Shown one piece after another: positions 22,008 to 42,500 of a stretch of 53,807 bases of DNA. Under the pieces are notes generated by a model that saw only the letters and a list, made by a program, of their open reading frames with translations, was not told the DNA's origin and did no database searches. The stretch comes from a virus, in the IMG/VR virus record IMGVR_UViG_3300010354_000118, positions 1 through 53,807 of that record, one strand, 5' to 3'. Positions within the stretch are counted from its first letter, which is position 1, and the number at the start of each line of letters is the position of its first letter. The position numbers and the translations under genes were made by a program.

Positions 22008-25000
22008 TTAGAATCCCTTTATTCTTATACCGCTATCATATGTCAGGTACGTGCCATCATCTAATCTTATATACATATCGCCACCATAATAATTAATATC
22101 CGGAATTCCAGCGGTTCTATCATGTATAAATGTACTAACTGAGCTTTCAGGTTTTTTCGCTACCGAAACGCTTAATAGACTCGTATCACTTACGTATCTT
22201 CTAACCAGCGATAATGGATATCCGGTTTGTATATTTACTGTAGAGGTATTTAAAATTATTTTAAATGTACTGGTTCCTTGCTTTATAATACTAAAATCAT
22301 TTTCTAATTCACTGAGTCCAAGATCAGAATTGTTATCAAAGCTATAGTTTTTATCATGAACTAATCTCTTATTACCAGACTTAAGAGGTTTTACCAAAGG
22401 AATTCCTCTATAAAAAACCTGTACTTGATCATGATAAGCTATTGAATCATCAAAACGAATATTATTAATTACGTAGGTATTAGTTGTAGACGTTGTGGAA
22501 ATGACGACTCTTTGGAAATTGTCAGTTAGGGGGATGTTTTGTTTAACACTTCCATCCATGACCCATGTGCCTATGGCATAAAATTCCCTAGGTCCTGTTC
22601 CTAACGTACCCCTTTTAATTCTACGTAATGTGTTGCCCTGTTTCTCTAAATATTCTATGCGTTCGCCTGCAATGAATATGATACCAGGTCTATTTTGTTC
22701 AGGATAAGGATTGGCCATTACTAATCCGTCGCTGACTTCTATTTCTGTATCATCATATCTTAGTTCTTTGGTAAGATACACAGTGTCTTGCTGACTGATT
22801 CTCTTGAAATGATTTCTATTGAAAATATCTTGAAATAATTTGAATCCGATAGTCTTAGTTTCACTATAACCAAATGCCAATATATTAACTAAACCGTCGG
22901 TTTCTTTCATTAGATCTTCGTCAATCTTTATGGTCTTTTTATCAGAAAGAACATAAAAATCAGATCCGCCAAGTAGAGCCTTACCATTCAAACTTACCCA
23001 AACAAAATTTTCGTCGTAGACTACTCTAGAAATTCTATAATATCCGCTGCCATTTATTGGAAATACTTCATTGATAGCGAAACTATTATCTTGGACTGGC
23101 CAACTTAAAACTCTTAATTTTCCAGCCGTATTATATTTTTTTATGATATAAATTTGATTTCCTATTATTCTAAATTCAGCAGGATATTGATAGATAGTTA
23201 TACCAAGTGTATCTCCAGGTACCAAATAACCATTTGGCAATCTAACAGTCATAGCGTCTGTATCTAAGAAAAATGCAGTACCAGGAACTTCGACTGAATT
23301 TTTAAAAAGTTCAATTTCACTATATCCTAATGATTCAATAGGATAACTAAATCTTCCTTGTAATGAAAATTCAACTTGGTTATTTTCAGTAATTTTAATG
23401 TAAGTCGTATTTGGTGGTGTAAGCCTCCTACCATCTAATTCTACAATAACCTGCGATGACTGAGAATAATTGTAAGCTGGAGGATTTTTTAATGTATAAC
23501 CGCTAGCATAAATTGTATTAGCTAGATTATTATCGATTCCTCTGTAATCTATAAATTGTTCGTAAAATAGTGTAGAATGTAAAGATTCATTGGCAAACAT
23601 ACTGGTAACTATTGTTCCTCCGGCACTATTGAGATTTGATATTTGTACTGCTGCTCTCGAAGCGTTGAATCCTGGTGCTTGAACTATTTGATATGAATAA
23701 TTTGTAGCACTGTTTACATAGATATCAACCGCAGAACTTTTTACTTCGTTATAATCTGCGTCAGTTAAAAATAGGTACTCATCTAATCCAGGTGGTATAT
23801 TGCCATAATTTACAGATAATAATCTACTGCCTCCCGGAACTGCGGCGATAATTTCTAATGATCCAGATTTTACAAAATCTGAAACTCTATTAGGACTGAA
23901 GCTACCTTCACCAGCATAAACCCAATTTCCCCCATCAGCTAGACTATAGAATACATGCGAACTATTATCACGAATAGCTGTGTAGCCTATTTGAGTTCCA
24001 GATCCATTTAGTGAGCCAGATCTTGCTGTAGAAACACCTGTAATAAATCCTCGATCGCCGTTAAAATTTATACCCTTCCATACGTTTCCGTAGACCATTT
24101 CTATGTATTGGTATACTCCATTAGTATATAGAGTTACTTGATATTGATAGGACGGAAAAGGACTTTGCAATCTCTCATTATAATGTCCGCCTTCATGCCT
24201 AATTTTAAAATATTGCCACTCTCCTATAGTTCCAGAATCTGTATACAAACCTGGATTTCTTCCGCTGTTCAACGGCTGACCGTTAGAACCTAATGATAAC
24301 CATAAATCACAGTACATGACATAAATTGCAGGAGAAGTTAAAAACCCAAATTGCAAAGGAGTCCAATTAGTAAAACCGTAGCCAAATGTAAGATATCCGT
24401 TAGATCCCACATAAACTTGGTCAAAAGTTTTTCCAAACATGTTCCATTTTATAGGAAGTGGATAAGGGCCGAAAAAGGCATCATCCCCTATGTCGGAATT
24501 TTCTATAAAATTATCATCCGAATAATTCATAGATTTTATAGCCTTGCTAAAATAGGGCCCAACTGTATATCTTGTTGGATCGTCTTTAAGTTCGATAGAT
24601 CTAGAATTGTAATCAATATCATAGACTTTTCTATCTAATTGTTGATTATTAAATGTAACAATAATAGGATATCCTGGATATACTCCCTTGCTAAATGAAT
24701 ATGTACCTGTACTCACATCCTCGACTGTGTGAACTCTTCTATAGAAAGCAGGACCTGCTGTTATAGATCTAGAATAAACATTGATACCTACAGTATCATA
24801 GGCCTCCCCTTTGACCATTTCTTCAGGTGCGTGTGATCGCCAAGGTGATAGGAATTGATCACCATCTAATCTAATATCTAGAGGATCAACTCCTCGAGCA
24901 GTTAGAAATGCGCCAGACGTAGATGTGGTCATGTCTCCGCCACTGATTTGAACATCTAAATTGTCTACATCAAACGCTACTTTACCCCATTCGTTTGATT

Positions 25001-28000
25001 CAAATAAATCGTTATCAAAATTATAATTGGGATTAAGAGGTTCTGTTATCAAAGTGGTACCAGGATATTCTGCACCTTTCATATTTTGAGAAACGACATT
25101 TCCTGACATTCCAGACCCAGATTCATATAGATCTAGCATTCTTTCAACAGCAGAATATAGTTTAACATTCTTTGTATAACTGACTTCCAGTGTTTCTCCG
25201 TTATTAGGAATTCTATCTATAACAATGTCTGTCATTAAGGCATGATAACTATTCTTTAGTTTCCTGTATTCCCTAACAAAAAACTTATTTTTCAAAAGAT
25301 TAATCCCGTTTAGTTTTACTTCTATTTGATTTTTATCAGGTGTAGCGGCCCATCGAGTGGTTTGATAATCTTTTGTTCCGTCAAAGGTAAAAGTTTCAGT
25401 TACTCTATCCGAGGGCACTTCTCTTGATGTAGTAATTCTGTCAAATTTTATGTTAATAAGATTTGATCTTACTTTACGATTATTCATTATGCAATAGGCT
25501 GTGGCATTTTCACCAGTTTTTTCGAAACTATTAATAACAATAGTAGGTGTTTCCGTATAGCCATCACCTTGATCTAAAACTTCTATTTTATAAACTTGAC
25601 CTCTTCTTATATAGGCTTTGGCCCTGGCAGGACGAATTAATGGTTGAGATTGATTAGAAAGAATTATTACTTCTGGCGGATTTAAATATCCGCTGCCTGT
25701 GTCACGAATTTTAATTTCTTCTACAAATAATTTATAATTTTTAGACCATGATCTATGAGGTTCATTGTTGATCCTCTCATCATTTAATGACAATGGAACA
25801 AAGGTTTTTTGCTGTTCACTATAGACAAGTGGATAATCAAAATCGGTTATCACTCCATTAAATGGTTCAAGATTATTATAGGACAAAGCGTAATTTCTTA
25901 TTTTGCTGTGAAATGGTTTTATTTCTTTCACATAATCTTCATACCATTCGGAATTTGAAAATTTATACGAACCTGGTTGTGTAAGACCGTTAATTTCTGC
26001 TTTGACTGAGATAAAAGATGTTTTAAAAGCCCAATCAAGTGTTTTCTGCTCGCTATGAGCGTATCTTACCGCGGTCAAAAACATGGCTACCCAGTTCGAT
26101 TTAAGTATGCCTACAAAAATATTATCTCTTATAGCTGTTAGAATATTTGTTAATTCTATATTAGGAGTTTGATCGAAAAGAGTTACATCAAATGGCGTAA
26201 CTTGGTCAAAACCAAGGACACTTAATCTATTGTCCCATAAGCTATCTTTTAATTTTATAGTAGATAATTCTCCAAAAACAATATCATAATCTTTTGTAAA
26301 ATTACCTTGGATTCCGTCGGTTTTTCTTAAAATTAAATATCTAGATTCATAATTATTAACTTTGACGTAACCAGAGGGTTTGATATCCAACGTCTGAAGC
26401 TGATAGATATTATCTATCACTGCATCATAAGATTGATAAGATTTATAATCTTTATTTTTATAATCGACAAAATCCCAATACCTTGTAGTATCAAAACTCT
26501 GAGTTTTTATCTTTATCCATGATGAATTAATATATGAATATATAGCCCATCTTCCATTAGAAGTTGAATCGGACCTTATCAGGACTGAAAAAGGTCGAAT
26601 GACCAAATTTACCGTTTGATAATCATTTCCTGGACGAATGATTACTATATCAATGATTCGTCCTAAGTGATCGACAATGCTTTCTAGTTCTAAACCATTT
26701 AGATCGTTCTCAATATATATTCTAGGCCCTAGCCATTTAATAGGATTGCCGTTGATGTCTACTTCTTTCACTACTAATCTGCCATAACCTAGGCCAGGTT
26801 CTAATATATTAACTTTTGTAATTCTACCATTTTCTATTTCAGCTGAGACTGCTGCAGACTTGATTGTTTTTATATCAATACGATCTTTGTCAATTATGTC
26901 CTCAACCGCCAAATCGTAGCTTGACTCTGCAACGTCAGGTTCTTCTTCTCGTAAAAACAATCTGCTGAGATCATAATAATCTCTAATAAGATTTTGCTCG
27001 AAAATAGAATTTACATAATCAATGATATTTCTCAAAGCATAAAATCTATTTTTAAACATTGACTGTTTTGGTCTAAAATCTATCCCATACCGCTGACGAG
27101 CAGATAAATTGATGTCTGGTATAGGATTACCAAGTTTATCCAATCCAACAATACTATCTATAAACTTCCTCTCTAATAGAGGAGGTATACCATTTTTAGA
27201 ATTTTCATTTAATAAAAACCACTCAGTATGATTTTTATTTGTGTTGTTTATTGAATCATTAAGTACATTTAACACTATATCATTTGATTTTAAGTACGAC
27301 CTTACATTTACTAATGACATAGAATTAGGAGACAAGGCCTGTAGATAAGGAAGTCCATAAAATAACGGATCTTGAATTATAGAAGTTATTTCGCCCGCTG
27401 AAATTTTTCTACCCTGTCTATTTGGTACAAGACTTCTTCCTGACACCCAAAAATAATAACTGGTTTTAAAAGTATCTGAGTATATATCATAGATTTTTTC
27501 TATCGAAAAGTCAGTCGTTGATTTAGCTATGCCATCTATACCTTGTATTAGGCCAGCTTCCGATCCTGTGAGTTCATTCCATTGGGTGGGATTAATTGAA
27601 CTTTCTACCCATTCATAGATATCAATCGAACAACCGGGAAATAGTTTACCCCAATAGGCATTTTTAAAATCATCATCTCCTTGATCATAATAAATGTATT
27701 TTAAATTACTTAGATCCCACCATAATTCTCCAACTTTTTCTTTACCCCAAGATTGTTTTTGATCTAGATTATTTGTACCTTGATTATATACTGCCGGATC
27801 AAACTGTGTTTTATAACGTATTTCTTGATCTGCAATAGAAGGAATTTTTCCTTTTAGCGGATCAAATATTGTCAAATAATCTACAACTTCTTCTTTCTTT
27901 ATATCAATTAATTTCGCAGATCGAATAGAATCAGGATCTACATTTACATATTGATCCTGATACCTTAGTCTTTTCCAACTTAAATTATTTGTATCAATTC

Positions 28001-31000
28001 TGTCCCAAACATAGACGCATCCATCTCTACTTTTATTTTTTATAGAATTGATAGTATCTGGTAATTTTAGATACCTGTTAACTGCTCCATTTATATCATA
28101 TAGATCTGCTACTGATCCTGTAGTGTACTGTATTTGACCCTTAGAAGTAGCTATATCATAGATAATGGTTTTAACACCAGACTGACTAAGAGTAGGATTT
28201 TGTTCAAGAATAAGAGCTACAACACCTGCTACCTGCGCAGCAGCCACATCCGATCCGCTGTTTTTGGTAATATAATGAGTAGATGACCTTAGATCTAAAA
28301 CAGCATTACTTGATGTTCCTACCCAAGCACCCATTATATTAGTACCAGGGGCGAAAAGATCAATCCTAGGTCCTGAATTACTTGATGTGCTTAATGAATC
28401 TATTCCTGGGCCAGCTGATGAATCTGAAATATTACCTACTATGATTGTAGATTGTATGAGCCTATGACCTAATGGTCTGTTATAATATATAGGATTATTA
28501 TTGTTTAGTCCACTGGCAGTAATATAGTTATAGTAATCTTGATCTTCAAAAGTTTTTACTATTTTCAAAGAACTGTCGCCCGCACCGCTTATGGCAATCA
28601 TTCCTGCATTTATACATTCTTGAAGGTCATTAGCTAAATCTGGCAAATACCTACTTATTAGAATTTTATTTTCATATGGACCAGATTGTTTTAGGTGTAT
28701 GCCTTTAGTTGCCAATGTGCTTGTTGAAATCGTTGAGGTAGTGATTCCCCTAAAATTGATAGATGTTATACCACTATATTCTACAGTTAGAAATGAATCT
28801 GCTGCAATTAAAATAATAACAGGCCTATAATTATAGTTTAGTCTTCTTTCCTTGTACCATTCTAATATATATTTGTAGATAAATCTATCGTTTATTACAG
28901 GATAAGCATATGATGGACTAATATTATATATATCAGCACCTCGTGCCCAACCTTGAGTATTACCTGCTACAATAGAAGCTAGATGTGTAGAATGTCTGCT
29001 ATCAAAATTAGAATCGTTTAAATTTGACAACAGTGCCGCAGAATAAGTACTACCTGCATTTATGTCACCGGGAATTTTGTAAGAGAACCAATTTACATAC
29101 TTTACGCGAGATCCGCCAGATCCGTTTGGATATACAGCAAATTCAGGATGGCTAGGATCTATATATCCTCCTATGATTAATATATCAACCCCTTTTCCGT
29201 TATTGACAAGATCCAATGACCCTGACTTAGACATCGTCGAGGACCCAGCTCCCCACAAGGAATCAAGATTCGCCCCGTCAAATATCCTTAAAAGACCCCA
29301 ATTCTTAACTGTAGAAGTTATTGATGTGCCTTTAGAAAAATTATCAGTTTGTTTATATCCTTTATATTTAGAATCATCTGTTAACTTATGAATGGTATCA
29401 GGAGCTCCAACATAGACTGTGTTAGTATCAACAGCTAGTCCAAATCCATAATCATCATCGCCTGGTAAACTAATATCGTTGAGTTCTTCTGCAAAAAGAT
29501 AAAATTCATCTAAACGATTGTAAACATAAACCGACCCAGAATCTTTTTTGAGTCCACCAAATTTCGTATACTTGTTATCAAAAAATGTTGTATTTTTATC
29601 AAAAGTCATACTATAAAAAGTACTTGTACCCTGTGCTCCTATCGCTATGACTGTTCCATCTTTATTACTTTCAACTGACGCCCCAAATTTTAATTCTTTA
29701 AATTGTGTGGGATTTTCTAGAACTTGATGAAACTTAAAACTATTTTCTGACCATTTATAGACTAAAACTTTACCAAGTGTGCCTTGAAGATTAACTGAAT
29801 TAGGAGCTGTGACGTATAGGTAATTACCAACATCATCCATATCAATGTCATCAGCATATAGAGATTCTGTCTTTATAATTCCTAAATTTTGAGGACTGTC
29901 CCATGCTAGTATTTGAACTAGATTATAAGACTTATTATTCTTGAAAATTTCTCTCAGCCAAGTATATAGTTGTTGTTGAGCATCGGGTATATTAATTGCA
30001 TGGCTATAGACCCCGGGAATTTCCAAACCTGCAGAATCTAAAACTGTAACAACTTGGTCAGTAGGTAATAGATCAGTGAATTCTTGAATGTTAGATAAGG
30101 GAACTATATTATCAAAGACACTGTGTAAAAAGTAAAATTTAACTCTATTGGTTTCAATAGAAGTTTTCCAAGAGGCATATTTGTATACAGGGCTTAACAC
30201 TTGAGCATTAGCACCATTATTAGTATATGGATTTAATACGTTAAACACTACCTCATTGGGAATACCATTAGTTGAAGTTCCGGATATACTGCCTATTAAA
30301 TTAGCAGGTAATTTTAAATATCTGTTTGGAGATCCTAGAAGATCATAAGGATCCATGATACCTCCAGACGATGTAGATATTTGATTGATACCGGCGGCAG
30401 CGATAAGAGCAGCCTTGGCAGTGGTAGCGTCTAAGGCAGGATTTATTGAAGCCATTAAGGCCAAAACGCCAGCTACCTGAGGAGCAGCCATACTGGTTCC
30501 GCTGGCCTTGGCCAAATAATATGTAGTAGAGGTACTTCTTGCATCTATGGCAGGTGGTAGTCCTGTATAGCCAAATGAGCTGGTATATGGTTGATCATCT
30601 AGCCAAGCTGAAGTTATATAGGCTCCAGGAGCGAAGATGTCTATTCTATCGCCTCGATTTGAAAAGTTTGCGATTCCGTCAACGCCTACTATGTTGGAAT
30701 TAGCTCTTATAGCGCCAACTAGAATTACACCTGGTACAGATCCAGGAGTTCCTCCTCTCATATAGTAAATAGGATTTCCAGAATTATACCCAGTGGCCGT
30801 TATCGTATTATTGTAATCGGGATCAGCAGCATTGGCAGTTACTTTTAGACCATAGTTCCCAGCTGAAGCAGTTATGATAATTCCAGCTGCTAGGCAGGCA
30901 GAGACATCGGCGGCCACGGTCGTGTCGTAATTTGGTACTTGAATACGATTACTAGCATCAACCCTAAGTCCATATAATGCCAAAGTAGAAGTGGTAAATG

Positions 31001-34000
31001 GTCCAGTATAACTAGTACCTCTAAAATTTATTGCTATAATATCTGTTATTAGCGGACTATGACTCATCAACCAAGAACAATTAACTATTGTAGGATTATT
31101 TGCGTAAGGAGTTGCAGATGCTCTTTTCTCGTCGTGCCATGCTTTGATATATTTGAATACGAGGGTCGTAGGAAAGTTGTCTACATCCATGTCAAAGATT
31201 CTGGCCTTTCTAGCCCAACCTTGTGTATTTCCAGCGATAATACCTGCAACATGCGCACTGTGCTTCATTCTCAAATCGATAGGAGATGTCACAGGGGTAT
31301 AGGTAGTTGCTGTGGTCGGATCTCCTACTGTGGTTTTAAGCGAAAACCAATTATAATATTCTACTCTGGTTCCGCCGGTTCCATCAGGATTTAGTGCGAA
31401 TTCAGGATGGTTAGGATCAGTCCAACCTACATCACAGATTACAACGTCGACATTAGATGCTGAAGTAGACAGGTAAAAACTACCACCTAGATCAGTAACA
31501 TTTGTATCCGCTCCCCAATTTGCCACAGGATTTTGACCGTTATAAACACGCCAAAGTCCCCAATTAACGTCTGTAGGTTTATTTGCTTCAGCCTTGCTAA
31601 AACTATTAGAGCTCACAGAAACCAAGGACGATATACTATTTGTTATAGTGGTTACTAGACCCATGGGACTAGCTATTGGTATTATGGCGAGAGGATGTAC
31701 ATTGAATAATCTTCCATATTCGCAAGCTGCCATTACAGCTAAATGACCCCCAACACTAGTTCCCGTTACCACTAGATCATATTGTTTATAGTATTCATTT
31801 ATAATCTTCCAATAACCTATTCCGTTTTTAGTAAATTGATCTCCTGCTCCTTGAACATAGATAAACTTTAAAATTGTCAAAATATCGTTGACATTTTGCG
31901 CTTGTGAGCCAAAATCTGTTGTTTCAAAGTTATTCGCTTCTCCTGTACTACTGGCTATATACACAGAATTGAAGGCATTTTTTACCAATCTATAATTACA
32001 ATTAATAACGATATATCCTTGCTGTACAAGATCTATTGCCAAATATTCGTCGCTTACAATATTTTTTACAGGATCATTTGAAGAAAAAGTAGGTAATGTT
32101 GAAATATCTATTGCGAATGGTAATGCCTGGTTAGGGGTATTAGCTGATGTTTCTAATACCAAATGCTGTGTTGATGCAACTATAGGTCCAGATGGGCCAC
32201 CGGTTCTAATTTTTATATCTACTAATGTATCTCCTATAAACTGTGCATCCTGAGGGAATCTAATTGTAAAACTTTTTCGAAATTGATCTTCATTAATATC
32301 CCATTCTGTTACAGCAGTATTGCCAATCAAACTGGTTCTTATAAAACGTTCTTCGCAGGTTATCCAAAATTCGCCTTCTACTTTATCAGAACTAACAATG
32401 ATCGATATAGTAATTCCTTCGTTAGCAGAGTAACTAGACAGGCTCACAATAGACCAATTGGCAGTTTCCTGTGAAACATTAACATTTTCCGTTATTGATT
32501 TTGCTTGATCAATTAAACTTATATTTGGTTGAATAGTTAAATCAATTTCTGTTTTAGAATTAGACGCTGATGCAGACAAATACCTAGAAATGCTTTTAGT
32601 TCCCCCTGACCATCCCCCTCCATGCACCATCATTACCATGCCTTTGACCATTCCGGAAGTTGGTATCAATAAATCTACACTTTGAAGAAAGTCGTTTCCA
32701 TAGGGGATATCATATATAACTCTAAAATTTTCAAATGACTCAGACTCTGGTACTGCAACTTTATCGAATATATATACAGATCCGTTTGTACCATCACCTA
32801 AGGTAGTGACAGCTATTCTACTTCCTTCTAGATTTCCTGCTATCTTTGTCCCAAATCTTTGCCCTATTGCGCTAGAGACTGGCAAAAATTGCTGTTTAGG
32901 AGAATTTACGTTAGCTCGATAAGTTTTTTTAATGGCAGCATCAAATGGCGTTATACCTCCATCAAAAACAGTTGTATCTCTATCGAAGATTGTTCTTTTT
33001 GAATCAAAACTTTCATAAAATAAATCATAGACAAAGACAGCGCCAGAAGCAGTATTATATCCAGGAGCTCCTACTAAAATCGTTTTATTCAAAGGTGTAG
33101 ACGATATGTAAACACTATAACCAAACTCAAGATTATTTTGAGGGTATTGAGAAATAAGTGTTGTTAATCTTTTATCTTGATTAGATGTAGATTGGAAAAT
33201 TGATGAAACAGTCACTAGTCCCTGATTAACATAATTAGAAACTGTAGACCCGGGAACAGCCAGAAATGTAGCATTATTCAATATTTTAGTAGGAATTTTA
33301 GAAGCATAAGGACTTCCTACTACAACTAAGTCATCAGAAGAATCAAAAGACAAAGAATGACCAAATCCGGCAGAAGGATAATTTATATTGTCAAAATATT
33401 GTTGATTTTGATAATTTAGATAAAAAGAAGAAATTATTTTTTTATTAGAACTATCTATAATAAAAACTTTACCATATTGATTAATTGAATCATTTTTCAA
33501 ATTTGCAGCGGTCAATATAATGATTTTATTTTCTTCATTAGAAATTATTTTAGTTCCAAATCTCTGCAGATTAGATCTTTCAGGTCTAATCTTATCTATG
33601 GCGTAATTTTTTATTTTTTGATATACTTCCCATTTACCCTTTTCGTTGTTATCTATCCATAATTTTTGATCAATAGCTATATCTGCAATACCATTGACAT
33701 TAATTAAACTATCTATATCTACTAATCTAGCAGTTTCTAGTCTGCATAATACCGCTTGGTCGACTCTTTCTGGTAAATCGGCTTGAGATTCTATAACGAA
33801 ACTGTTTAGAGACGGAATAGAAATTATTTCAAATACTTTATCAAAATCATCATTCAAATATTGAATTAAAACTCTGTCTCCTTGATTAAGGTAATGATAA
33901 TTTTTTGTTGTAACCTTAAATGATTGCCCAGATTGATAATTTTCTACGTTTATCACAGGATTTTTCAAACGCACTGTTCTATAAATCATCCAATCATTAT

Positions 34001-37000
34001 TTTGATCAAAAGCTACCCATATACTTTGGCCTGCAGACAATTTGATTTTTGATTCTTTTAATTCGTTCCAATTTTTAATAATGATATCGACATCATCTGG
34101 TCTAGGATACCCTGCATCCATTAAAACATGGCCATTATTTTCAAAATTTACTGACAAAGGTTTGAATATATTTTCTATATCAAATAAATTAGGCTTAATG
34201 GTTATTTTTTCATTAGTAACCTGGTACCTAACAGTTTCTAAAATATCTTGTTCTTTTTTAAACTGAACTAGTTGCCTATTATCAATAAATTCTTTTTCGT
34301 TTAATAAAAATTCTAATTCAATTAGAGATGAATAAGAGCCGAGATTGCCTAATCTTAATGCCCACTCTTCAGACACCGAAATTTTTGTATTTGAATTTTC
34401 AGAACTGGCTTTAGATATATTTTCAAGTGCTAATCTTGTACCTTTTTCTCTAATATATCCTTGATAGAATTTGTATTGTGTAATTGGATTAATTAAAATA
34501 TTGGTTAGATAGGGTCTAGGACTATAGCCAATAAGATGTTGAGCTAACTTTTGTTGCCCAGAATCAAAATTATCAATATCTAAACTATAGAAATCCTCGA
34601 ATTGATTAATTTTATAATCAAAATTTGGTAACAAATCTGCTATTGGTTTATCCCCTAGTAGATCCCAATCAGCTTGTTCAAAATCCTTAGTGCCTATAAT
34701 ATTACGTTTTAAACTATAATATTTGTTATTATATCTTACTAAATCTCCTGCTAGATAATCACTGTATGGTTGCCAATCTTGTATATAAGCATCATCGTAA
34801 ATAAATCCGGGTGTAAAATAATCGCCATTCCAGTCTATGGTTTTAAATCCTACAAGTCGTATACGTGTTTGTCTATAACCTTTGACACGATCATAGATAA
34901 CATCATTGAATCTACTTAAATTATTAAAAATTAAAATATGTTCTTTTTGAACAAGATTTAATCTAACAAAATATATAGCGTTTTCATTATTAATTGTATG
35001 AATTATAAAATTAATACCATCTCTTTCTAAACTAAAAGAATCTTTGGTCAAAGGTTTCCCAGATTCATCAAGAATATTATACTCATAAAATGAATTAAAA
35101 ATATTATCAACTACACCAGATTCACTAACTAATGTAAATTTATTTGCAAAAGGACTAAGTGTAAGTACACTATCTAATGCCCAATTTTGAGTAGACCAAA
35201 ATAAAAACTCCTTGATACTGAATGTCCAATTAATTATTTCTGCTAGATCGGTGTTATAGTCATCAAATACCACACCTATACTGCTTAGAAAATTATCATA
35301 TCCTAAAATAAAATCTACTACTTCCTGAACGTTAGAATAAATTTTTCCATAAGGAACTCTTGTTATATTATTTTCAAATTGAATCGCTAGGTAGACTTCT
35401 GCACCTCCAAACTCAGGTAGGTCTGTTAAAAGATTATAATTTCTACTGTCAAATAAATCCCCACTGGTATGATTTGTGTTTACTCTATAATACCTATTTT
35501 CATACTTGACCACAGCGCCTGTGCTATAGAATATTCTGCTTGCCCAGATTTCATATTCTTCTAATCTACCGCCAACTCTCAGTACTTTCTCACCTGTAGT
35601 ATGTATTACTTGTCTAATTTCAAAGTAGCTGGTTTTATTATCATAACCTCTAATTTGATAACCGTTGGCAACTTTTTGTACAATAACTCCACTCATACTA
35701 ACTGTTTTAACAGCATTACTAGAGTTTAAAAATATTTCATAGTCTTCAGAAGGTAATAAAATACCAGAGGACTGGCTATCCGGATCTAGAGAATCTATTA
35801 CAATTTGTAGTTTATCTTTGCTGATAAATCCACCTACCTTGTGTGCTAGTCTGTAATCAACAAAGGTTAAATCTTCATATAAATTGTTAACATAATTTAA
35901 ATTATTGGTCTGATTGGCTTCAACTAATAACACACTGTAACCGGAGGTTAATGTCTTTGTGTTATTTTTGATAAGATAAGGTATATCAAGTTTGTTAAGA
36001 CTAGGAAATAGATTAGAGTCTTTTTTAACTAGTTGATTATTAATTCTAACATATCTACTAGGATCCCATAATGTAGACAGATATTTGGCAGGCTTAGTCA
36101 GAATAGCTAAAATCTGAACAGCATAAGGCCAAGCACTGCTTCTACGCCAGGCAGTTTCAGCAGGTCCATGATCCCCAAACTCCCATGTATCATTTTGAAA
36201 ATTAAGATATTGTATTGGTAGAGGTGACCAATTTATAAGGTTGATTAGGTCACCATTACTATCAACTGGAATATAATTAATTAAACCGTCACGTTTATAT
36301 AAATTATCTTGACCTTTCCTAATTCCTTGACGGATAATACCTTTTTCTAAATCTTCCCATAATATGTTATTATTTTTTGTATAGGGAGCAGGTCCATATT
36401 CTTGTTCCCACCATTCAGGTTGTTCACCAAATCCCAACATTTCCCATGGATTAGTATGTGGCCTATCGGTGTCAAAAAATAACTTGAAAATTCCACGCCA
36501 ATTTCCAGGAAACTTATAACCTCTAGTAGTTACCAGTTCGCTGAAATTAAATGATCTTAGATCTTCATTATCATAGAATGTGTTATTTTCATAATCTATA
36601 TTGTATCCCGATTTCCATTTTACAAAATCAGGATATATGACATTCATAATATCCCAATAATCAGCGCCCCATGTGTTTGATCTTGTCAAACTAGGTAAAA
36701 CACTATTAATATCAAACAGTGAGTGATCGTACGTTGCTTTTATAGAATTATATACTCTTGTCTCATACTCTAAAATTATGTCATCTCTATAATCATTATA
36801 GGCCACAATAATGCTACCATCATGTCCTTGAATTACCTTTACTGGCTCCCCAATATAGGTATTATCAAAATACATTGAGGGCTTGAATTTAGGATATAAT
36901 CCTAGACTAGTTGGGGTAGGAGGAACATAATTTCCTACTATAGAAACATAGCATCTTATGTTAATTTTATCATTCAATTCTATATCAATCTTCAACTCAA

Positions 37001-39566
37001 TAGTTTGATCAACACTGTTAATAATATAATCTGTACCATGTATAAGCTGAACATCATTAAGATAAACATAGACTGCTTTTTCCGACAGCACTGTAGGATC
37101 GAATGCCATAGGCATATAATAGGTCTTAACCTGTATATTACTAACTTGATATTCTTTAAACGACGTAGGTAATCCTATACCTAGCATTAGACTATTGTAA
37201 AAACCAAACTGTGAAATTTTATCTTTGTTAATAAAAGATAAAACTTGATCTAAAAATACATAAGCAGGACCGATATAAGGCCTATCAGTTATAAATTTTA
37301 ATAAGTTATGCTTAAATTGATTATACTGTTCAGATACCTGCCTAATCGCAGATATAATGTTATTATTTTTATCAGAGAGAAACGCTAAACTATATGCTAA
37401 ACTGTTTTCATTTAAAATGAGTCTAGTGCCTGTATTGAAAAGATAAGCTAACGAACTGAGATTACTTACACCAGGATATGATCCTTTAAAATCATTTGAC
37501 GCTTTAACAATAGTTTCTACATGGTCAAAAATTTCAGAGTAGGTAAGATTATTTGAATATTCATTTAGAGGATTATTTTCATTGTTAATAGGAAATTCAT
37601 ATAATCCATCTGTTGTAATTTTTAATTCATAATCTTGTTGCTCAGAATAAACATTTTTAAACTCAAATGTATAACTTTGTTCTAATTCATTGTAAAAATA
37701 TTTTTTAAGATAACAGGCATTTACCTGTTTAAAAATCACAGTATCTCCCTCTACAATACTGATAACATCCGTGTTATAATTATTGTCAAAAAGGTAAGAA
37801 CTTTCTATCTTGGTATTTTTATATTTTAATGGAAATCCTAAAACTTTATCATCGGTACCTGTACCTTGAGCATAACTAAAAACTTTTGTGCCTTTGAAAT
37901 CAGACTGAAATAATGCACTTGAATACGAGATTCCATTGGGATCAAAAAGATCAAATAGAGGTGCTTGGTTCCTTGAAGTTTTTTCTTGGCTTAGGATCCA
38001 ATTAGTACCATCAAAAAAGTAAGATTTTCCTTTGTTGGTTTCTCCGTCTAATACTACAATATTGGCTCCTTCCGTAACTTCGTGAAGAACCTTTAAATCT
38101 ATTTTTTGAAGACCTGTTACTGAGACAATATCTACTTCGTAAATTTTATTTCTTACAGCTACATCGTTATCTAATGCAAATATAACAGTGTCCCCTTTTT
38201 GAAGAGAATAACCATCTGCCATGAAACCAAAACTATTTTCAACTTTATAAAATGCATTAGTTTGCAATTGATCTAGAGCTTTAATATTTCCTAGAGAATA
38301 ATGTCCAAATTTAAAAAGTTTAAGCCCGCTAACGAATTCGATTATGGGTCTATTCGCTCGATAATTTTGAGGTAATACAGGCAATTTGCCATTGATGGAT
38401 GCTACTGCCTTTAAAACACTAGAATGATACCATCTATTATACCGTGACCAGGGATTAAGATCTTTGCTGGCACGATTGATTGTGACGTATTCAGGTACAA
38501 TTGGTAAATTTTTAAATGAATCAAATGGGTATATATCAAAATTATATCCGTCAAATCTATCATCGATAAGTTCTGTTATATCTTGTTCTGGATTTTGTAG
38601 TGTAGACCTATCCACAAGTCTTATGCTATCTCCAACACCTTCAACTATATAGATCTTATTTCTATAAGACTCGGGATAAACAGTTCCGTCAAATCTTACA
38701 GTAAGGCCATTTATAAATTCAATATTATTTCCTGATGTATAGCTCTTTTTTCCTACTATTTCATCTACATTGATAACAGTATTTTCGTCCTGGTCAAATA
38801 TATTAATAGCCCCTACAGATAGTTGTTCATTTAGAGCTGCATAAAATAATCTATCAGGTGTATCCCAATTTACAGTAAAAACAATTTTGCCTTTATTTGT
38901 ACCATTATTTACAACACCGCTATCATAACTATTACCGTCTGCAAGGAAGGCATTGTTTGTATAGGTGATAAAAAAGCTTCTAGCACAATCAACATCAAAC
39001 ACATAGGTATAACCCCGATATAATTTTAATTCGGCCGATGGAGTTCTAGAATCAAAATCAAATTGAATTCCGTCCTTGTTATCTTTAACCGAAATTGTAG
39101 TTACAGGTTCTATAATATTACCAGAAACATCAACAGGGTCAATGCCCATAGGAAACCAATAGTATTCTCTAAAATTAATAAACTTATCCCAATCAATCTG
39201 CGGATAGTAAGAATAAAATTTTTGTTCTAATAGATCTTTTAAGTTATAGGGAGTTTTATAAAAATTTAATTGATTAATTAGATCTTCAAGGCCTAGAACT
39301 TTTTTAGTTACTTGATCTTTACTTCTAATAATTAAACTAGGTTCTAATTGATATTGTTGTCTAAGTTGAGTAGGTTCTACTACATATTGATCTGTAGATT
39401 TATAATTAGGGGATGATTTTCTACCTACAAATGAATCAATACGGTTTAGCGCAGCAGGTTCTATTAATTGGTCAAGTGTATTACCTAAGAATTTCTTATT
39501 CTTTTCTGTTCTAAAAAAAGCCGGTAGTAAGTTTACTGTGCTTCTATTATTTTTTTTACCAGCCAT
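22008..39566 (-). CDS. 5852-residue giant baseplate/tail protein with nested enzyme domains
   Basis: One uninterrupted frame of 17.6 kb begins MAGKKNNRSTVNLLPAFFRT, directly after gp6, where T4 has gp7. The first 2000 residues are baseplate-type repeats. FG-GAP/propeller-like repeats (FGHSLSFDSSDDLVVVGSPY, FGYSVYISS, FGTKIAGNLEGSRIAV) run from about 2020 to 3900. An alpha/beta-hydrolase (about 2285-3205) is inserted there: HGGGW at 2315, GTSVGG with Ser2604, Asp3152, His3189. Inside it lie a beta-rich insert (about 2325-2505) and a subtilase (about 2650-3085; Asp2712, His2769, Ser3025). A second subtilase copy (about 3410-3835) has Gly3466 for Asp and Asp3773 for Ser. A nidogen-like region is near 5050. 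The role is inferred: baseplate periphery plus host-surface degradation. Confidence 0.85.
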   Translation of the reverse strand: MAGKKNNRSTVNLLPAFFRTEKNKKFLGNTLDQLIEPAALNRIDSFVGRKSSPNYKSTDQYVVEPTQLRQQYQLEPSLIIRSKDQVTKKVLGLEDLINQLNFYKTPYNLKDLLEQKFYSYYPQIDWDKFINFREYYWFPMGIDPVDVSGNIIEPVTTISVKDNKDGIQFDFDSRTPSAELKLYRGYTYVFDVDCARSFFITYTNNAFLADGNSYDSGVVNNGTNKGKIVFTVNWDTPDRLFYAALNEQLSVGAINIFDQDENTVINVDEIVGKKSYTSGNNIEFINGLTVRFDGTVYPESYRNKIYIVEGVGDSIRLVDRSTLQNPEQDITELIDDRFDGYNFDIYPFDSFKNLPIVPEYVTINRASKDLNPWSRYNRWYHSSVLKAVASINGKLPVLPQNYRANRPIIEFVSGLKLFKFGHYSLGNIKALDQLQTNAFYKVENSFGFMADGYSLQKGDTVIFALDNDVAVRNKIYEVDIVSVTGLQKIDLKVLHEVTEGANIVVLDGETNKGKSYFFDGTNWILSQEKTSRNQAPLFDLFDPNGISYSSALFQSDFKGTKVFSYAQGTGTDDKVLGFPLKYKNTKIESSYLFDNNYNTDVISIVEGDTVIFKQVNACYLKKYFYNELEQSYTFEFKNVYSEQQDYELKITTDGLYEFPINNENNPLNEYSNNLTYSEIFDHVETIVKASNDFKGSYPGVSNLSSLAYLFNTGTRLILNENSLAYSLAFLSDKNNNIISAIRQVSEQYNQFKHNLLKFITDRPYIGPAYVFLDQVLSFINKDKISQFGFYNSLMLGIGLPTSFKEYQVSNIQVKTYYMPMAFDPTVLSEKAVYVYLNDVQLIHGTDYIINSVDQTIELKIDIELNDKINIRCYVSIVGNYVPPTPTSLGLYPKFKPSMYFDNTYIGEPVKVIQGHDGSIIVAYNDYRDDIILEYETRVYNSIKATYDHSLFDINSVLPSLTRSNTWGADYWDIMNVIYPDFVKWKSGYNIDYENNTFYDNEDLRSFNFSELVTTRGYKFPGNWRGIFKLFFDTDRPHTNPWEMLGFGEQPEWWEQEYGPAPYTKNNNILWEDLEKGIIRQGIRKGQDNLYKRDGLINYIPVDSNGDLINLINWSPLPIQYLNFQNDTWEFGDHGPAETAWRRSSAWPYAVQILAILTKPAKYLSTLWDPSRYVRINNQLVKKDSNLFPSLNKLDIPYLIKNNTKTLTSGYSVLLVEANQTNNLNYVNNLYEDLTFVDYRLAHKVGGFISKDKLQIVIDSLDPDSQSSGILLPSEDYEIFLNSSNAVKTVSMSGVIVQKVANGYQIRGYDNKTSYFEIRQVIHTTGEKVLRVGGRLEEYEIWASRIFYSTGAVVKYENRYYRVNTNHTSGDLFDSRNYNLLTDLPEFGGAEVYLAIQFENNITRVPYGKIYSNVQEVVDFILGYDNFLSSIGVVFDDYNTDLAEIINWTFSIKEFLFWSTQNWALDSVLTLSPFANKFTLVSESGVVDNIFNSFYEYNILDESGKPLTKDSFSLERDGINFIIHTINNENAIYFVRLNLVQKEHILIFNNLSRFNDVIYDRVKGYRQTRIRLVGFKTIDWNGDYFTPGFIYDDAYIQDWQPYSDYLAGDLVRYNNKYYSLKRNIIGTKDFEQADWDLLGDKPIADLLPNFDYKINQFEDFYSLDIDNFDSGQQKLAQHLIGYSPRPYLTNILINPITQYKFYQGYIREKGTRLALENISKASSENSNTKISVSEEWALRLGNLGSYSSLIELEFLLNEKEFIDNRQLVQFKKEQDILETVRYQVTNEKITIKPNLFDIENIFKPLSVNFENNGHVLMDAGYPRPDDVDIIIKNWNELKESKIKLSAGQSIWVAFDQNNDWMIYRTVRLKNPVINVENYQSGQSFKVTTKNYHYLNQGDRVLIQYLNDDFDKVFEIISIPSLNSFVIESQADLPERVDQAVLCRLETARLVDIDSLINVNGIADIAIDQKLWIDNNEKGKWEVYQKIKNYAIDKIRPERSNLQRFGTKIISNEENKIIILTAANLKNDSINQYGKVFIIDSSNKKIISSFYLNYQNQQYFDNINYPSAGFGHSLSFDSSDDLVVVGSPYASKIPTKILNNATFLAVPGSTVSNYVNQGLVTVSSIFQSTSNQDKRLTTLISQYPQNNLEFGYSVYISSTPLNKTILVGAPGYNTASGAVFVYDLFYESFDSKRTIFDRDTTVFDGGITPFDAAIKKTYRANVNSPKQQFLPVSSAIGQRFGTKIAGNLEGSRIAVTTLGDGTNGSVYIFDKVAVPESESFENFRVIYDIPYGNDFLQSVDLLIPTSGMVKGMVMMVHGGGWSGGTKSISRYLSASASNSKTEIDLTIQPNISLIDQAKSITENVNVSQETANWSIVSLSSYSANEGITISIIVSSDKVEGEFWITCEERFIRTSLIGNTAVTEWDINEDQFRKSFTIRFPQDAQFIGDTLVDIKIRTGGPSGPIVASTQHLVLETSANTPNQALPFAIDISTLPTFSSNDPVKNIVSDEYLAIDLVQQGYIVINCNYRLVKNAFNSVYIASSTGEANNFETTDFGSQAQNVNDILTILKFIYVQGAGDQFTKNGIGYWKIINEYYKQYDLVVTGTSVGGHLAVMAACEYGRLFNVHPLAIIPIASPMGLVTTITNSISSLVSVSSNSFSKAEANKPTDVNWGLWRVYNGQNPVANWGADTNVTDLGGSFYLSTSASNVDVVICDVGWTDPNHPEFALNPDGTGGTRVEYYNWFSLKTTVGDPTTATTYTPVTSPIDLRMKHSAHVAGIIAGNTQGWARKARIFDMDVDNFPTTLVFKYIKAWHDEKRASATPYANNPTIVNCSWLMSHSPLITDIIAINFRGTSYTGPFTTSTLALYGLRVDASNRIQVPNYDTTVAADVSACLAAGIIITASAGNYGLKVTANAADPDYNNTITATGYNSGNPIYYMRGGTPGSVPGVILVGAIRANSNIVGVDGIANFSNRGDRIDIFAPGAYITSAWLDDQPYTSSFGYTGLPPAIDARSTSTTYYLAKASGTSMAAPQVAGVLALMASINPALDATTAKAALIAAAGINQISTSSGGIMDPYDLLGSPNRYLKLPANLIGSISGTSTNGIPNEVVFNVLNPYTNNGANAQVLSPVYKYASWKTSIETNRVKFYFLHSVFDNIVPLSNIQEFTDLLPTDQVVTVLDSAGLEIPGVYSHAINIPDAQQQLYTWLREIFKNNKSYNLVQILAWDSPQNLGIIKTESLYADDIDMDDVGNYLYVTAPNSVNLQGTLGKVLVYKWSENSFKFHQVLENPTQFKELKFGASVESNKDGTVIAIGAQGTSTFYSMTFDKNTTFFDNKYTKFGGLKKDSGSVYVYNRLDEFYLFAEELNDISLPGDDDYGFGLAVDTNTVYVGAPDTIHKLTDDSKYKGYKQTDNFSKGTSITSTVKNWGLLRIFDGANLDSLWGAGSSTMSKSGSLDLVNNGKGVDILIIGGYIDPSHPEFAVYPNGSGGSRVKYVNWFSYKIPGDINAGSTYSAALLSNLNDSNFDSRHSTHLASIVAGNTQGWARGADIYNISPSYAYPVINDRFIYKYILEWYKERRLNYNYRPVIILIAADSFLTVEYSGITSINFRGITTSTISTSTLATKGIHLKQSGPYENKILISRYLPDLANDLQECINAGMIAISGAGDSSLKIVKTFEDQDYYNYITASGLNNNNPIYYNRPLGHRLIQSTIIVGNISDSSAGPGIDSLSTSSNSGPRIDLFAPGTNIMGAWVGTSSNAVLDLRSSTHYITKNSGSDVAAAQVAGVVALILEQNPTLSQSGVKTIIYDIATSKGQIQYTTGSVADLYDINGAVNRYLKLPDTINSIKNKSRDGCVYVWDRIDTNNLSWKRLRYQDQYVNVDPDSIRSAKLIDIKKEEVVDYLTIFDPLKGKIPSIADQEIRYKTQFDPAVYNQGTNNLDQKQSWGKEKVGELWWDLSNLKYIYYDQGDDDFKNAYWGKLFPGCSIDIYEWVESSINPTQWNELTGSEAGLIQGIDGIAKSTTDFSIEKIYDIYSDTFKTSYYFWVSGRSLVPNRQGRKISAGEITSIIQDPLFYGLPYLQALSPNSMSLVNVRSYLKSNDIVLNVLNDSINNTNKNHTEWFLLNENSKNGIPPLLERKFIDSIVGLDKLGNPIPDINLSARQRYGIDFRPKQSMFKNRFYALRNIIDYVNSIFEQNLIRDYYDLSRLFLREEEPDVAESSYDLAVEDIIDKDRIDIKTIKSAAVSAEIENGRITKVNILEPGLGYGRLVVKEVDINGNPIKWLGPRIYIENDLNGLELESIVDHLGRIIDIVIIRPGNDYQTVNLVIRPFSVLIRSDSTSNGRWAIYSYINSSWIKIKTQSFDTTRYWDFVDYKNKDYKSYQSYDAVIDNIYQLQTLDIKPSGYVKVNNYESRYLILRKTDGIQGNFTKDYDIVFGELSTIKLKDSLWDNRLSVLGFDQVTPFDVTLFDQTPNIELTNILTAIRDNIFVGILKSNWVAMFLTAVRYAHSEQKTLDWAFKTSFISVKAEINGLTQPGSYKFSNSEWYEDYVKEIKPFHSKIRNYALSYNNLEPFNGVITDFDYPLVYSEQQKTFVPLSLNDERINNEPHRSWSKNYKLFVEEIKIRDTGSGYLNPPEVIILSNQSQPLIRPARAKAYIRRGQVYKIEVLDQGDGYTETPTIVINSFEKTGENATAYCIMNNRKVRSNLINIKFDRITTSREVPSDRVTETFTFDGTKDYQTTRWAATPDKNQIEVKLNGINLLKNKFFVREYRKLKNSYHALMTDIVIDRIPNNGETLEVSYTKNVKLYSAVERMLDLYESGSGMSGNVVSQNMKGAEYPGTTLITEPLNPNYNFDNDLFESNEWGKVAFDVDNLDVQISGGDMTTSTSGAFLTARGVDPLDIRLDGDQFLSPWRSHAPEEMVKGEAYDTVGINVYSRSITAGPAFYRRVHTVEDVSTGTYSFSKGVYPGYPIIVTFNNQQLDRKVYDIDYNSRSIELKDDPTRYTVGPYFSKAIKSMNYSDDNFIENSDIGDDAFFGPYPLPIKWNMFGKTFDQVYVGSNGYLTFGYGFTNWTPLQFGFLTSPAIYVMYCDLWLSLGSNGQPLNSGRNPGLYTDSGTIGEWQYFKIRHEGGHYNERLQSPFPSYQYQVTLYTNGVYQYIEMVYGNVWKGINFNGDRGFITGVSTARSGSLNGSGTQIGYTAIRDNSSHVFYSLADGGNWVYAGEGSFSPNRVSDFVKSGSLEIIAAVPGGSRLLSVNYGNIPPGLDEYLFLTDADYNEVKSSAVDIYVNSATNYSYQIVQAPGFNASRAAVQISNLNSAGGTIVTSMFANESLHSTLFYEQFIDYRGIDNNLANTIYASGYTLKNPPAYNYSQSSQVIVELDGRRLTPPNTTYIKITENNQVEFSLQGRFSYPIESLGYSEIELFKNSVEVPGTAFFLDTDAMTVRLPNGYLVPGDTLGITIYQYPAEFRIIGNQIYIIKKYNTAGKLRVLSWPVQDNSFAINEVFPINGSGYYRISRVVYDENFVWVSLNGKALLGGSDFYVLSDKKTIKIDEDLMKETDGLVNILAFGYSETKTIGFKLFQDIFNRNHFKRISQQDTVYLTKELRYDDTEIEVSDGLVMANPYPEQNRPGIIFIAGERIEYLEKQGNTLRRIKRGTLGTGPREFYAIGTWVMDGSVKQNIPLTDNFQRVVISTTSTTNTYVINNIRFDDSIAYHDQVQVFYRGIPLVKPLKSGNKRLVHDKNYSFDNNSDLGLSELENDFSIIKQGTSTFKIILNTSTVNIQTGYPLSLVRRYVSDTSLLSVSVAKKPESSVSTFIHDRTAGIPDINYYGGDMYIRLDDGTYLTYDSGIRIKGF
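28040..29340 (-). other. second, degenerate subtilase domain inside the giant protein
   Basis: It is recognisable by WGLLRIFDGAN, DPSHPEFAVYPNG, RHSTHLASIVAGNTQGWARGA, SGAGDSSLK, NSGPRIDLFAPGTNI and AAAQVAGVVALI, aligned along its length with the first copy. His3525 stays, but the Asp position reads IIGGY and the Ser position reads SGSDVAAA. It interrupts a propeller-like repeat between VYVGAPDT and GCVYVWDRID. Confidence 0.8.
30300..31615 (-). other. first subtilase domain, catalytic triad present, nested inside a hydrolase domain
   Basis: VVICDVGWTDPNHPEF (Asp2712), MKHSAHVAGIIAGN (His2769), ITASAGNYG (oxyanion Asn) and ASGTSMAAPQVAGVLAL (Ser3025) are all in place. Upstream is the hydrolase nucleophile segment GTSVGGHLAVMAACEYG; downstream are the hydrolase Asp (FLHSVFDNIVPLS) and His (YSHAINIPDAQQQ). 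Confidence 0.85.
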
Positions 39567-39571
39567 ATGCT

Positions 39572-42500
39572 TTATTCCCTAGAATCTGTAATGTAACTGC
39601 CTTGAATATTAAGATCATAAGCAGTAAACGATTCAACTATTTCTATATCAGTTGAACTAGCACTAGAAATAAATAATTCATCAGGGCCACATTTTATTTC
39701 AAAAAGACTACCAAAACTATTTTTATTTTTTGGGACTATGACAAAATTTAAAATGTCTGGTGTTAACTTATTCATAACATAGGCACTAAGTTCTGAAAAA
39801 TAAAAAGTTTGTCCAAATTCCCAATTCTCTAATGCAAAAAATTCACTAAACGCTGTAAGTATTCGTGACTTAATATCGTTATCTGATATAGGTCTTTGTA
39901 AATTTCTAACAACTTTAAAAGTTGCCTGTATATTTGCTGGAGATCTATTTCCAAATAATACCTTATATTTTACAGGGAAAAATATTATTTCATCGCTAAT
40001 GGCCTTATAAGAATCAAGAGAAGATTTATATAAACTATCTAACGTACTAGATGAAGGAGGTAACGGCTCTAGACCTGTATCTGTGGACAACCAATTTTTA
40101 TAATCAACATCGTAATCTTTAGTCAAGACATATATATCAATTATGTTTGACTTACTAGGATCTATTCTACGAGACTCTGGCGCTTGATGCTCGTAGTGAA
40201 ATTTCAATTTTGACCTACCGGTTCTCACTTTGTAACCTATTTCAAGCTCAAAATCATTTACTATGGTAGAAAATTTCATTACCACATCATATTGTCCATC
40301 GTAAAAATAAAATAGCTGCTGATCTATCCTTAATGCTAGTGGTACATTATTAGGCTTAGGAAAAAAATAGAAAGTATCGTTATCTATTAAACGATAGGTA
40401 GTATTATCTGATTGAATTTGAAACACAACAAAATTGTTACGGAATCCGGTTTGTGCCGATATGTGATTAGAATCAACTATTTCTTCGAAACTATCTGGAT
40501 TATCTATCATTCCGTCATTGTCATTATCATAAAAACTTACCTTAACTCTGGACGGATTTTGATAACCATCTTCATCAATAATAGCATTATCTATTTGCCA
40601 TTCATAATCACTAACTAGTTCTGAACCTAGATTAGGTTTCTTATTAATTCCCAATACTGTAATTTTGTCTTTGATAACTGCATCAGATACAAAATCATAA
40701 TTTACTTCTTGAAAGTCCACAAAGAATGCTGTTTCTTTTTCACTTTCAAAAATATAGTCACAGGTTCTATATTTTAAATTATATTTCAATCCTGTCCATT
40801 CAAACGCTATGAGCCAGCTCGAATCTCTGTTAAAATTCGTTTGCTCTTTCTGGAAACGTAGAGTGAAAGGTGTAGTAAAATTAATATTTGATTTATCAAT
40901 TACGAACCAATCGCCAGTTTCTCTATCAAAAGTAATACCGAAATTTACACGGTTAAGACAGTTATCAATTAATTGGTTCTCTAATTCATTACCAAATAAT
41001 GTTAATAACTGAGGAATAACTTCTACCAGAATACTGTCACTAGGCACGATATCTGTAAAAGCGATAGGCCCTGTGCCATTTTTATATAGTCCTAGACCGT
41101 TATTGTATCCTGATCCATCTATAGATATAACTTTAGTCCAAATATACAGCCTTGTGGTTTCGTCTTCAACAAAAGTTAATTTCCCATTAGGTAAAAAATA
41201 CGTTTGTTCTGGCACTCCAACCCCACTACCTCGATTAAATTTTTTAGGTGCTTGAAATTTTAATAGAGATCCTTTTTTGACATATTTTAAACTAGAACTA
41301 GAACTAGATCCTACAGGTCTAGCCTTACCAACTTCTGCGAAATAACCTGTAGATTTGTTGTAACTACTTGTTCCCAATTTCCAAGTATAGACTGTGTTTT
41401 CAAACTTTATTCTAGGAAACTGATCGTAATAAAAAGATTTTAAACCAGATGATTCTGTTATATCTGCGACTGTATTTTGAAAAAATCTTTTCAATTCATT
41501 TTTATTACTGAGCTGAAATTCATAGATAGGTTCTAGAATCTCTCTAAACAAAATTCCATCTTTACCATAGATATTTAGATTGCTGTACTTGCCGCTGACA
41601 TCAGATAATTCAAAATACTTGCTAATGCCACTAGATACCCTATTAACAGCTTTGATTTTCATAATATCATTACCAGACAACAAGGGAAGAATATTATAAT
41701 CTTCGGCTGTTATCATACGGTTTTGAGTATAATAAATTTGAGGGGCTTTTAATTTGATATTTTCATTAGATTCCGTAGTCGTGGCATTATTAATAGTATA
41801 ATTTAATGATGCAATTATAGTGAGTGAGTGTAATTGATTTTGCCTATTGTAGTATTCTACATTAAAACTTATATTACTCATCTGTTGGGGAGTAATATTA
41901 TAATTTATACCCGCACTTTGACGATAGTATAATTTAAATTTACCTACAGGAAGGTTACCAAATGTTCCGTCCGAAAATTCTAAATCTATTTGATCATTAT
42001 TACGAGTATTGACCTTGTAGATATTTCTTTGTTTAGCAGTCAGACTATTATAGATAATATTGTTACCTACTATAGCAGGAACCTTAGACCACGGTGCATC
42101 TGGATAATTACCCTCAGGTGTCATTTGCCATAGCCATACATCAGTTTCATTTATATTAGCAGCATCAATGCCTACTATTTCATTCGGTACCGGAGTATCT
42201 AAGGTGAAATCAAGAAGATTTAATATTCCCTGTTTAAATAAAACAAAAAATCCAGTGTTACCTGAACCATTTCCTTGACTGTCATTTTTATAGATAAAAC
42301 TAAAACTATTTTTTGGCTTTGGAGTTTCTTCTACAATACTATTCTCAAAAGTAGCATTAACTATTTCAAAACTAAGATTTAGTCCATTGATTATCTTGGT
42401 AAAATTATATATAGGTACACCTATATTTGCGCTGTTAATTCTATATTGATCTGTTCTTATACCTGAAATGGTATCTGATTTGTAAGGTCTGCCATAGCTG

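Follow-up and report, generated by a model that had tools for sequence, protein, structure and literature searches.

Sequence evidence for a subtilase nested in an alpha/beta hydrolase within a beta-propeller of a predicted phage baseplate protein

Descriptions of phage-tail enzymes usually deal with separate spikes or tandem domains. The baseplate protein gp44 (Tal) of phage phi11 is listed as both endopeptidase and lipase/esterase, and virion-associated deacetylases are also known (PMC5380687); the N- and C-terminal domains of gp44 stand in tandem and are described neither as a subtilase nor as nested. Insertion of a functional domain into a propeller has a precedent in the alpha-I domain of the seven-bladed integrin propeller (PMC12422189), and in clostridial CspBA the active subtilase CspB is fused to CspA (PMC3567191), CspA and CspC being termed pseudoproteases (PMC12880746). 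Here we describe a protein of 5852 amino acids (aa) encoded in the 53,807-nucleotide stretch of IMG/VR virus record IMGVR_UViG_3300010354_000118 (the window, taken at its full length), in which one enzyme is built in at the lid of a second and both together are lodged in a propeller loop. Homologue alignments show a predicted hydrolase in the C-D hairpin of blade 4 of an FG-GAP propeller, interrupted first by a beta-rich stretch and then by an entire subtilase without prodomain, and a second, apparently dead subtilase in blade 7. The parts, all on the minus strand, are as follows (L numbers denote IMG/VR relatives).

22008..39566, minus strand: predicted baseplate-region structural protein of 5852 aa, P0001 (open reading frame (ORF); phrog_10938, E = 3.7e-233; local alignments)
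27963..33614, minus strand: seven-bladed FG-GAP beta-propeller, residues ~1985-3868, with two interruptions (FG-GAP_2, E = 3.9e-6)
29928..32732, minus strand: insert 1, residues 2279-3213 (935 aa), in the C-D hairpin of blade 4 (site empty in L019, L020, L022 and L023)
32571..32732, minus strand: hydrolase piece N, residues 2279-2332, with HGGGW at 2315 (homologue alignment)
32055..32570, minus strand: beta-rich insertion within the hydrolase, residues 2333-2504 (a gap in every aligned hydrolase homologue)
31596..32054, minus strand: hydrolase piece M, residues 2505-2657, with nucleophile Ser2604 (BD-FAE, E = 3.6e-6 alone; homologue alignment)
30222..31595, minus strand: subtilase 1, insert residues 2658-3115, core 2668-3094 (Peptidase_S8, E = 8.3e-25)
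29928..30221, minus strand: hydrolase piece C, residues 3116-3213, with Asp3152 and His3189 (homologue alignment; recruited by the stitched query)
29391..29927, minus strand: propeller blades between both inserts, residues 3214-3392
28029..29390, minus strand: insert 2, residues 3393-3846, a predicted subtilase-like pseudoenzyme (subtilase 2) in the B-C loop of blade 7 (Peptidase_S8, E = 4.4e-10; catalytic columns)

Every part that could be identified belongs to a known family, and both the peptidase-esterase pairing and insertion into a propeller have precedents; the nesting of a subtilase in a hydrolase is new as far as we found. The hydrolase has HGGGW, GxSxGG, Asp, His and a profile match in common with BD-FAE and other carbohydrate and feruloyl esterases (PF20434; PDB 4zrs, 2pbl and 4n5h), and departs from them in two large inserts, of which one is an entire enzyme placed at the lid. 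In integrin, a von Willebrand A domain is inserted between blades 2 and 3, whereas here blade 4 itself houses a nested pair of enzymes and blade 7 a pseudoenzyme. Cyanophage-type subtilases of phrog_9158 (S-H38, QPB07966.1; S-CREM1, UYA57622.1) belong to the same family as those of the window (37% identical) and are encoded beside baseplate or tail-pin genes, but they are free-standing proteins of ~550 aa with an N-terminal prodomain, in contrast to the embedded, prodomain-less window copies. CspBA resembles the window protein in combining an active subtilase and a pseudoprotease in one polypeptide; it is, however, a spore germination factor, retains its prodomain and carries its domains in tandem instead of inserted. 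With the jumbo-phage virion structural proteins 121Q gp582, RaK2 ORF070 and PA5oct gp355 (phrog_10938), the window protein shares its backbone and the slot directly behind a gp6-like wedge gene; neither its hydrolase nor its propeller obtained a match in the phage collection. No other subtilase inside an alpha/beta hydrolase was seen among the matches listed from IMG/VR, INPHARED and GTDB genomes, in searches that were partly pattern-based; the genome-collection scan returned, among the matches listed, ordinary bacterial hydrolases matching the HGGGW part and no nested case, and we found no description of a nested subtilase/hydrolase or of tail subtilases in the open literature. An earlier note on this DNA knew of no described precedent for the arrangement, a view that holds for the subtilase inside a hydrolase but is too broad in view of phi11 gp44, of tandem pairs in related phages and of the same subtilase lineage embedded in other tail proteins.

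The hydrolase was delineated by comparison with ten natural, uninterrupted phage hydrolases, which align to the unedited window protein over residues 2280-2332, 2505-2657 and 3116-3216 and whose HGGG, GxSxGG and NDTLV-type motifs coincide with those of the window protein; the gaps of this alignment mark out the beta-rich segment as residues 2333-2504 and the inserted subtilase as 2658-3115. Because natural homologues without interruptions cover all three pieces collinearly, with no editing of the window protein, the sequence supports reading the pieces as one domain split twice. Searched separately, the fragments gave BD-FAE E-values of 0.04 (N) and 3.6e-6 (M) and no match (C), whereas the joined pieces reached 4.9e-9, with a match extending to profile position 212 of 215 and with HGGGW, the nucleophile elbow, Asp and His in this order within the one profile. 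The BD-FAE match lies above the cut-off for both the unedited protein (31.7 bits) and the stitched query (36.5 bits), the latter also matching uninterrupted homologues at E-values down to 6e-40. His3189 pairs with the His of homologue L164 through a shared PGV..H context read by eye, while the automatic alignment sets the His of the remaining homologues a few residues after it. The predicted class is thus that of BD-FAE or carbohydrate esterases. For the beta-rich segment 2333-2504, a Pfam search returned no match, and a Calx-beta identity suggested by a faint hidden Markov model match was dropped.

The position of the subtilase relative to the hydrolase strands was read from an AlphaFold model of residues 2262-3222, for which only hydrolase rows were used; mixed hydrolase/subtilase alignments misplaced the C piece. 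The mean predicted local distance difference test score (pLDDT) of this model is 40.5, with the N and M pieces mostly at 75-92 and the C piece and subtilase below 50, the weakness of the subtilase part probably resulting from want of rows. The lid of alpha/beta hydrolases is often located after strand beta6, which in the confident part of the model ends near residue 2631; the subtilase comes behind this strand and hence occupies the normal lid position of the hydrolase.

With the inserts set aside, residues 1985-3868 match the ~500-aa FG-GAP propeller of IMG/VR relatives, which was found in 79 of the 81 large ORFs from 80 such relatives. The uninterrupted propeller of L022 was modelled with a pLDDT of 83.9 and a predicted template modelling score of 0.85; its strands, counted by hand, form seven four-stranded blades, its top PDB matches are integrin alpha propellers (E = 1.6e-14), and through this homologue the window domain is identified as an integrin-like FG-GAP propeller. 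Both insertion sites are empty in L019, L020, L022 and L023, which share 44% identity with the window protein over ~2300 residues. At site 1, window residues 2279-3213 have zero counterpart residues in L023 (2253/2251), and the site maps on the L022 model to the turn between strand C (296-303) and strand D (310-317) of blade 4. At site 2, window residues 3393-3846 stand against ~5 residues in L023, and the site maps between strands 481-486 and 499-505. None of the 81 large ORFs carries a subtilase or hydrolase within the propeller, no second contig with insert 1 was found in the relative scans, and scans of close relatives with insert 1 or the hydrolase alone returned no match, the hydrolase homologues having surfaced only via the subtilase scan. 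The G+C (guanine plus cytosine) fraction of subtilase 1 (0.43) and of hydrolase piece N (0.40), compared with 0.31 for the backbone, is in line with a later arrival, with the proviso that piece length and amino-acid content also act on G+C.

In beta-propellers, the face that bears the C-D turns is opposite the one that bears the B-C loops. Located in the C-D turn of blade 4 and the B-C loop of blade 7, the two window subtilases therefore probably project from opposite sides of the propeller. In other relatives, a hairpin of the corresponding propeller accommodates different large inserts, one of 430 aa in L079 (residues ~130-540) and one of 289 aa in L089 (residues ~2300-2585), both with repeated SRAQVI...YWM..GL units and the latter also with a PA14-like segment judged by eye; because of these, the loops of the FG-GAP propeller look like insertion hot spots. 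The window protein contains a third insert outside the propeller:

23877..24608, minus strand: insert 3, residues ~4987-5230, with a faint nidogen-like match (NIDO, E = 0.051; not in L019 (3659/3666) or L022)

The residues by which the earlier note had recognized the nested order (VYIFDK at 2264-2269, HGGGW at 2315, Ser2604 in GTSVGG, Asp2712, His2769, Ser3025, Asp3152 and His3189) all lie where it had placed them, and the FG-GAP-like repeat, hydrolase and subtilase that it saw in one stretch were recovered with the Pfam FG-GAP, BD-FAE and Peptidase_S8 profiles. Its statement that both enzymes have their catalytic residues agrees with the columns aligned with homologues, and the proposed order, subtilase in hydrolase in propeller, is borne out by the three-piece collinear alignment together with the insert-free propellers of relatives. 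It had located the right stretch (29950-32715), with limits slightly inside those of the insert itself (29928-32732), but it overlooked the beta-rich insert 2333-2504, the dead subtilase 3393-3846, insert 3 (~4987-5230) and the baseplate identity of the protein as a gp6 neighbour.

Within the subtilase profile, subtilase 1 keeps the Asp-His-Ser triad and oxyanion Asn of Peptidase S8 (Asp2712, His2769, Ser3025 and Asn2904, in columns aligned with homologues). In insert 2, three of these four catalytic positions are gone, the Asp, Asn and Ser being replaced by Gly3466, Asp3664 and Asp3773, with His3525 retained; having no S8 triad, it belongs to the subtilase fold family only. Because of these replacements and its long branch in a tree of 95 subtilase cores, insert 2 is classified as a predicted pseudoenzyme and not an active peptidase. 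Both modules have equal limits, from 'F-S-K...NWGL' to 'NRYLKLP', and both fall in one clade (99/97) together with subtilases that are lodged in other tail proteins. An origin of the nested subtilase from the adjoining free-standing gene of relatives was considered and rejected: the tree groups the window copies with the embedded ones and not with those of L017, L019, L020 and L022.

The embedded subtilases are further set apart by the absence of a prodomain. No prodomain match was found in residues 2261-3260, and subtilase 1 is thus not of the free-standing phrog_9158 type. Of the 95-row tree set, 79 rows possess the prodomain, including the free-standing homologues and the sister rows L110 and L113, whereas it was not detectable in the two window copies and 13 other rows of the inner clade; the simplest reading is a single loss at or after the move to embedded life. 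Normally, a prodomain assists folding and is removed autocatalytically (PMC3567191). Since such removal would split the host chain, an embedded protease would need to lose its prodomain. The other hosts of this lineage are varied. In L097 (ORF from 7347, 647 aa; phrog_694/430), the subtilase follows a gp5-like hub N-terminal domain and replaces the usual lysozyme. In L099 (ORF from 1248, 636 aa), with Glu at the catalytic Asp position, it is apparently nested in a minor tail protein (phrog_396/DUF1833-like), and joining the flanks raised the phrog_396 match from 52.4 to 56.3 bits and extended it from positions 47-162 to 6-162. In a baseplate-like protein, the module is C-terminal in L108 (ORF from 5988) and central in L195 (ORF from 5002, 1081 aa), where it is flanked by host homology on both sides (L195 5-303 and 787-1080 corresponding to L108 9-321 and 349-636, respectively). 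Judged by these alignments, L195 represents a second clear nesting of the same subtilase lineage and a moved insertion. This prodomain-less embedded lineage is the more general result and lies outside the original observation.

The same two enzyme families also occur in one chain elsewhere. In L117, L140, L151, L163, L178, L183, L189 and L164/L180, the subtilase gene carries an uninterrupted hydrolase as well, with a region that includes immunoglobulin-like or similar domains between the two. These tandem IMG/VR proteins differ from the window protein in that the enzymes stand side by side, the hydrolase is uninterrupted, the prodomain is kept and the gene is a separate one. The combination of a peptidase and an esterase in one chain is thus recurrent, and one lies inside the other only in the window. 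In L191 (ORF from 1197, 567 aa), the hydrolase profile matches are swapped, with the C part before the N part, signifying either two partial hydrolase copies or a circular permutation.

The reading that we favour, and regard as probable though far from secure, is that the baseplate propeller is a mounting platform displaying a nested esterase and subtilase, which clear the host surface during adsorption. Displayed on the propeller face of the baseplate, the subtilase would cut host surface protein and the esterase would strip ester groups (acetyl or similar) off the surface polysaccharide, opening a path along which the tail could reach the membrane. Free of its prodomain, the protease would fold inside the chain without cutting itself loose and so stay tethered, and the dead copy would be a binding or structural module that may bind peptide or only fill space. 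Several points weigh against this reading: the enzyme activities and the virion placement are predictions; only distant homology indicates the substrate class of the hydrolase; a single contig is the source of the nested form; and the model of residues 2262-3222 is poor, so that neither the docking of the C piece nor the assembled nested fold is visible in it, with a Foldseek search returning nothing under E = 0.001 and esterases as the top matches. In this phage, nested parts appear to have been combined into a tool with two enzymes, the relatives checked keeping the propeller empty. Uninserted, tandem and nested natural versions can be compared, which provides a natural test of the extent to which folds tolerate domain insertion, of the fate of a prodomain-less protease tethered at both ends and of tail propellers as general mounting platforms; the arrangement may also serve as a design for protein tools holding two hydrolases at a fixed distance.

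A bolder version, conceivable if rather unlikely, is that the subtilase is a working lid that gates or shapes the esterase site and couples protein and ester cleavage on one baseplate tool, and that it belongs to a prodomain-less lineage spreading as an insertable domain among tail proteins. We also consider it unlikely that the subtilase is a maturation protease that trims nearby tail or fibre proteins while the virion is being assembled, the host surface being no target. Subtilases are processing enzymes in many systems, and tail-protein genes adjoin the free-standing relatives, yet planting of the lineage in unrelated tail proteins (gp5-like hub, minor tail and baseplate-like) of different phages is easier to reconcile with display than with a single fixed internal substrate, and pairing with an esterase has no obvious role in maturation. 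Quite doubtful is the view that the inserts are bulk or binding decorations, with folds kept for spacing or for carbohydrate or protein binding and catalysis irrelevant: it would accommodate the dead subtilase 2 and the inserts of non-enzymatic appearance that relatives carry in hairpins of this propeller, but the hydrolase and subtilase 1 together retain all seven triad and oxyanion residues, even though such residues disappear when unneeded, as subtilase 2 demonstrates. It is highly improbable that the hydrolase pieces represent separate fragments or relics instead of one domain around the subtilase; piece C alone matches no hydrolase family and was modelled without confidence, but contiguous natural homologues span all three pieces in order on the unedited protein. 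An assembly chimera, in which contig misassembly joined the insert to the propeller, is barely credible despite the single contig, the lack of a second one with the insert in our scans and the higher G+C of the insert (subtilase 0.43, backbone 0.31), given three separate in-frame inserts, two of them exactly in propeller surface loops, with flanking homology intact on both sides.

The platform assigned to the displayed enzymes in our favoured reading is defined by family and gene context. Both its profile match and its slot behind a gp6-like wedge gene place the 5852-aa protein in phrog_10938, and its backbone aligns with 121Q gp582 and with PA5oct gp355, the latter annotated as detected by electrospray ionization tandem mass spectrometry. 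Local alignments were used for 121Q gp582, since whole-protein MAFFT misplaced the gaps. The 121Q and PA5oct alignments break off at window residue 1769 and restart at 3876-3897, so that ~2100 window residues (1769-3876/3897) stand against roughly 240-330 residues in these proteins. The order of a gene in the gp25 position, a gp6-like gene and a large protein is common to 121Q and XaC1, and its wedge-gene part is also found in PA5oct. In the IMG/VR relatives, the order is gp6, propeller protein, collagen-type protein, free-standing subtilase and a 222-aa homologue. The neighbours in the window are as follows.

43052-43483: short gene in the gp25 position, ahead of the gp6-like gene
39572..43000, minus strand: gp6-like baseplate wedge protein, upstream neighbour of the 5852-aa gene (phrog_10646, E = 1.9e-291)
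21125..22006, minus strand: collagen-repeat protein, downstream neighbour (Pfam Collagen, E = 1.3e-6; equivalent slot in relatives)
16653..21125, minus strand: tail-fibre-like protein of 1490 aa that includes a distant subtilase and ends in a glycine-rich part (Peptidase_S8, E = 2.6e-8; phrog_15006, E = 1.1e-21)

By gene order, the 1490-aa protein fills the slot of the free-standing subtilase of relatives. Family and gene context identify the 5852-aa protein as a baseplate-region structural component of a jumbo-type myovirus, its place in the virion being a prediction. Its likeness to gp7 is one of gene position only: no gp7-type family was found among its Pfam and PHROGs matches, and a direct comparison with a T4 gp7 profile was not made. 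The backbone also carries CBM_5_12-like repeats (chitin-binding type) at residues 1341-1368 and in one further place, as do the Atu_ph07 and SCTP-2 backbones. In the homologues from L011 (before residue 3324), Atu_ph07 and SCTP-2, quite different sequence seems to occupy the stretch that leads up to the conserved anchor (window residue ~3876), and the point of the backbone just before this residue may be hypervariable.

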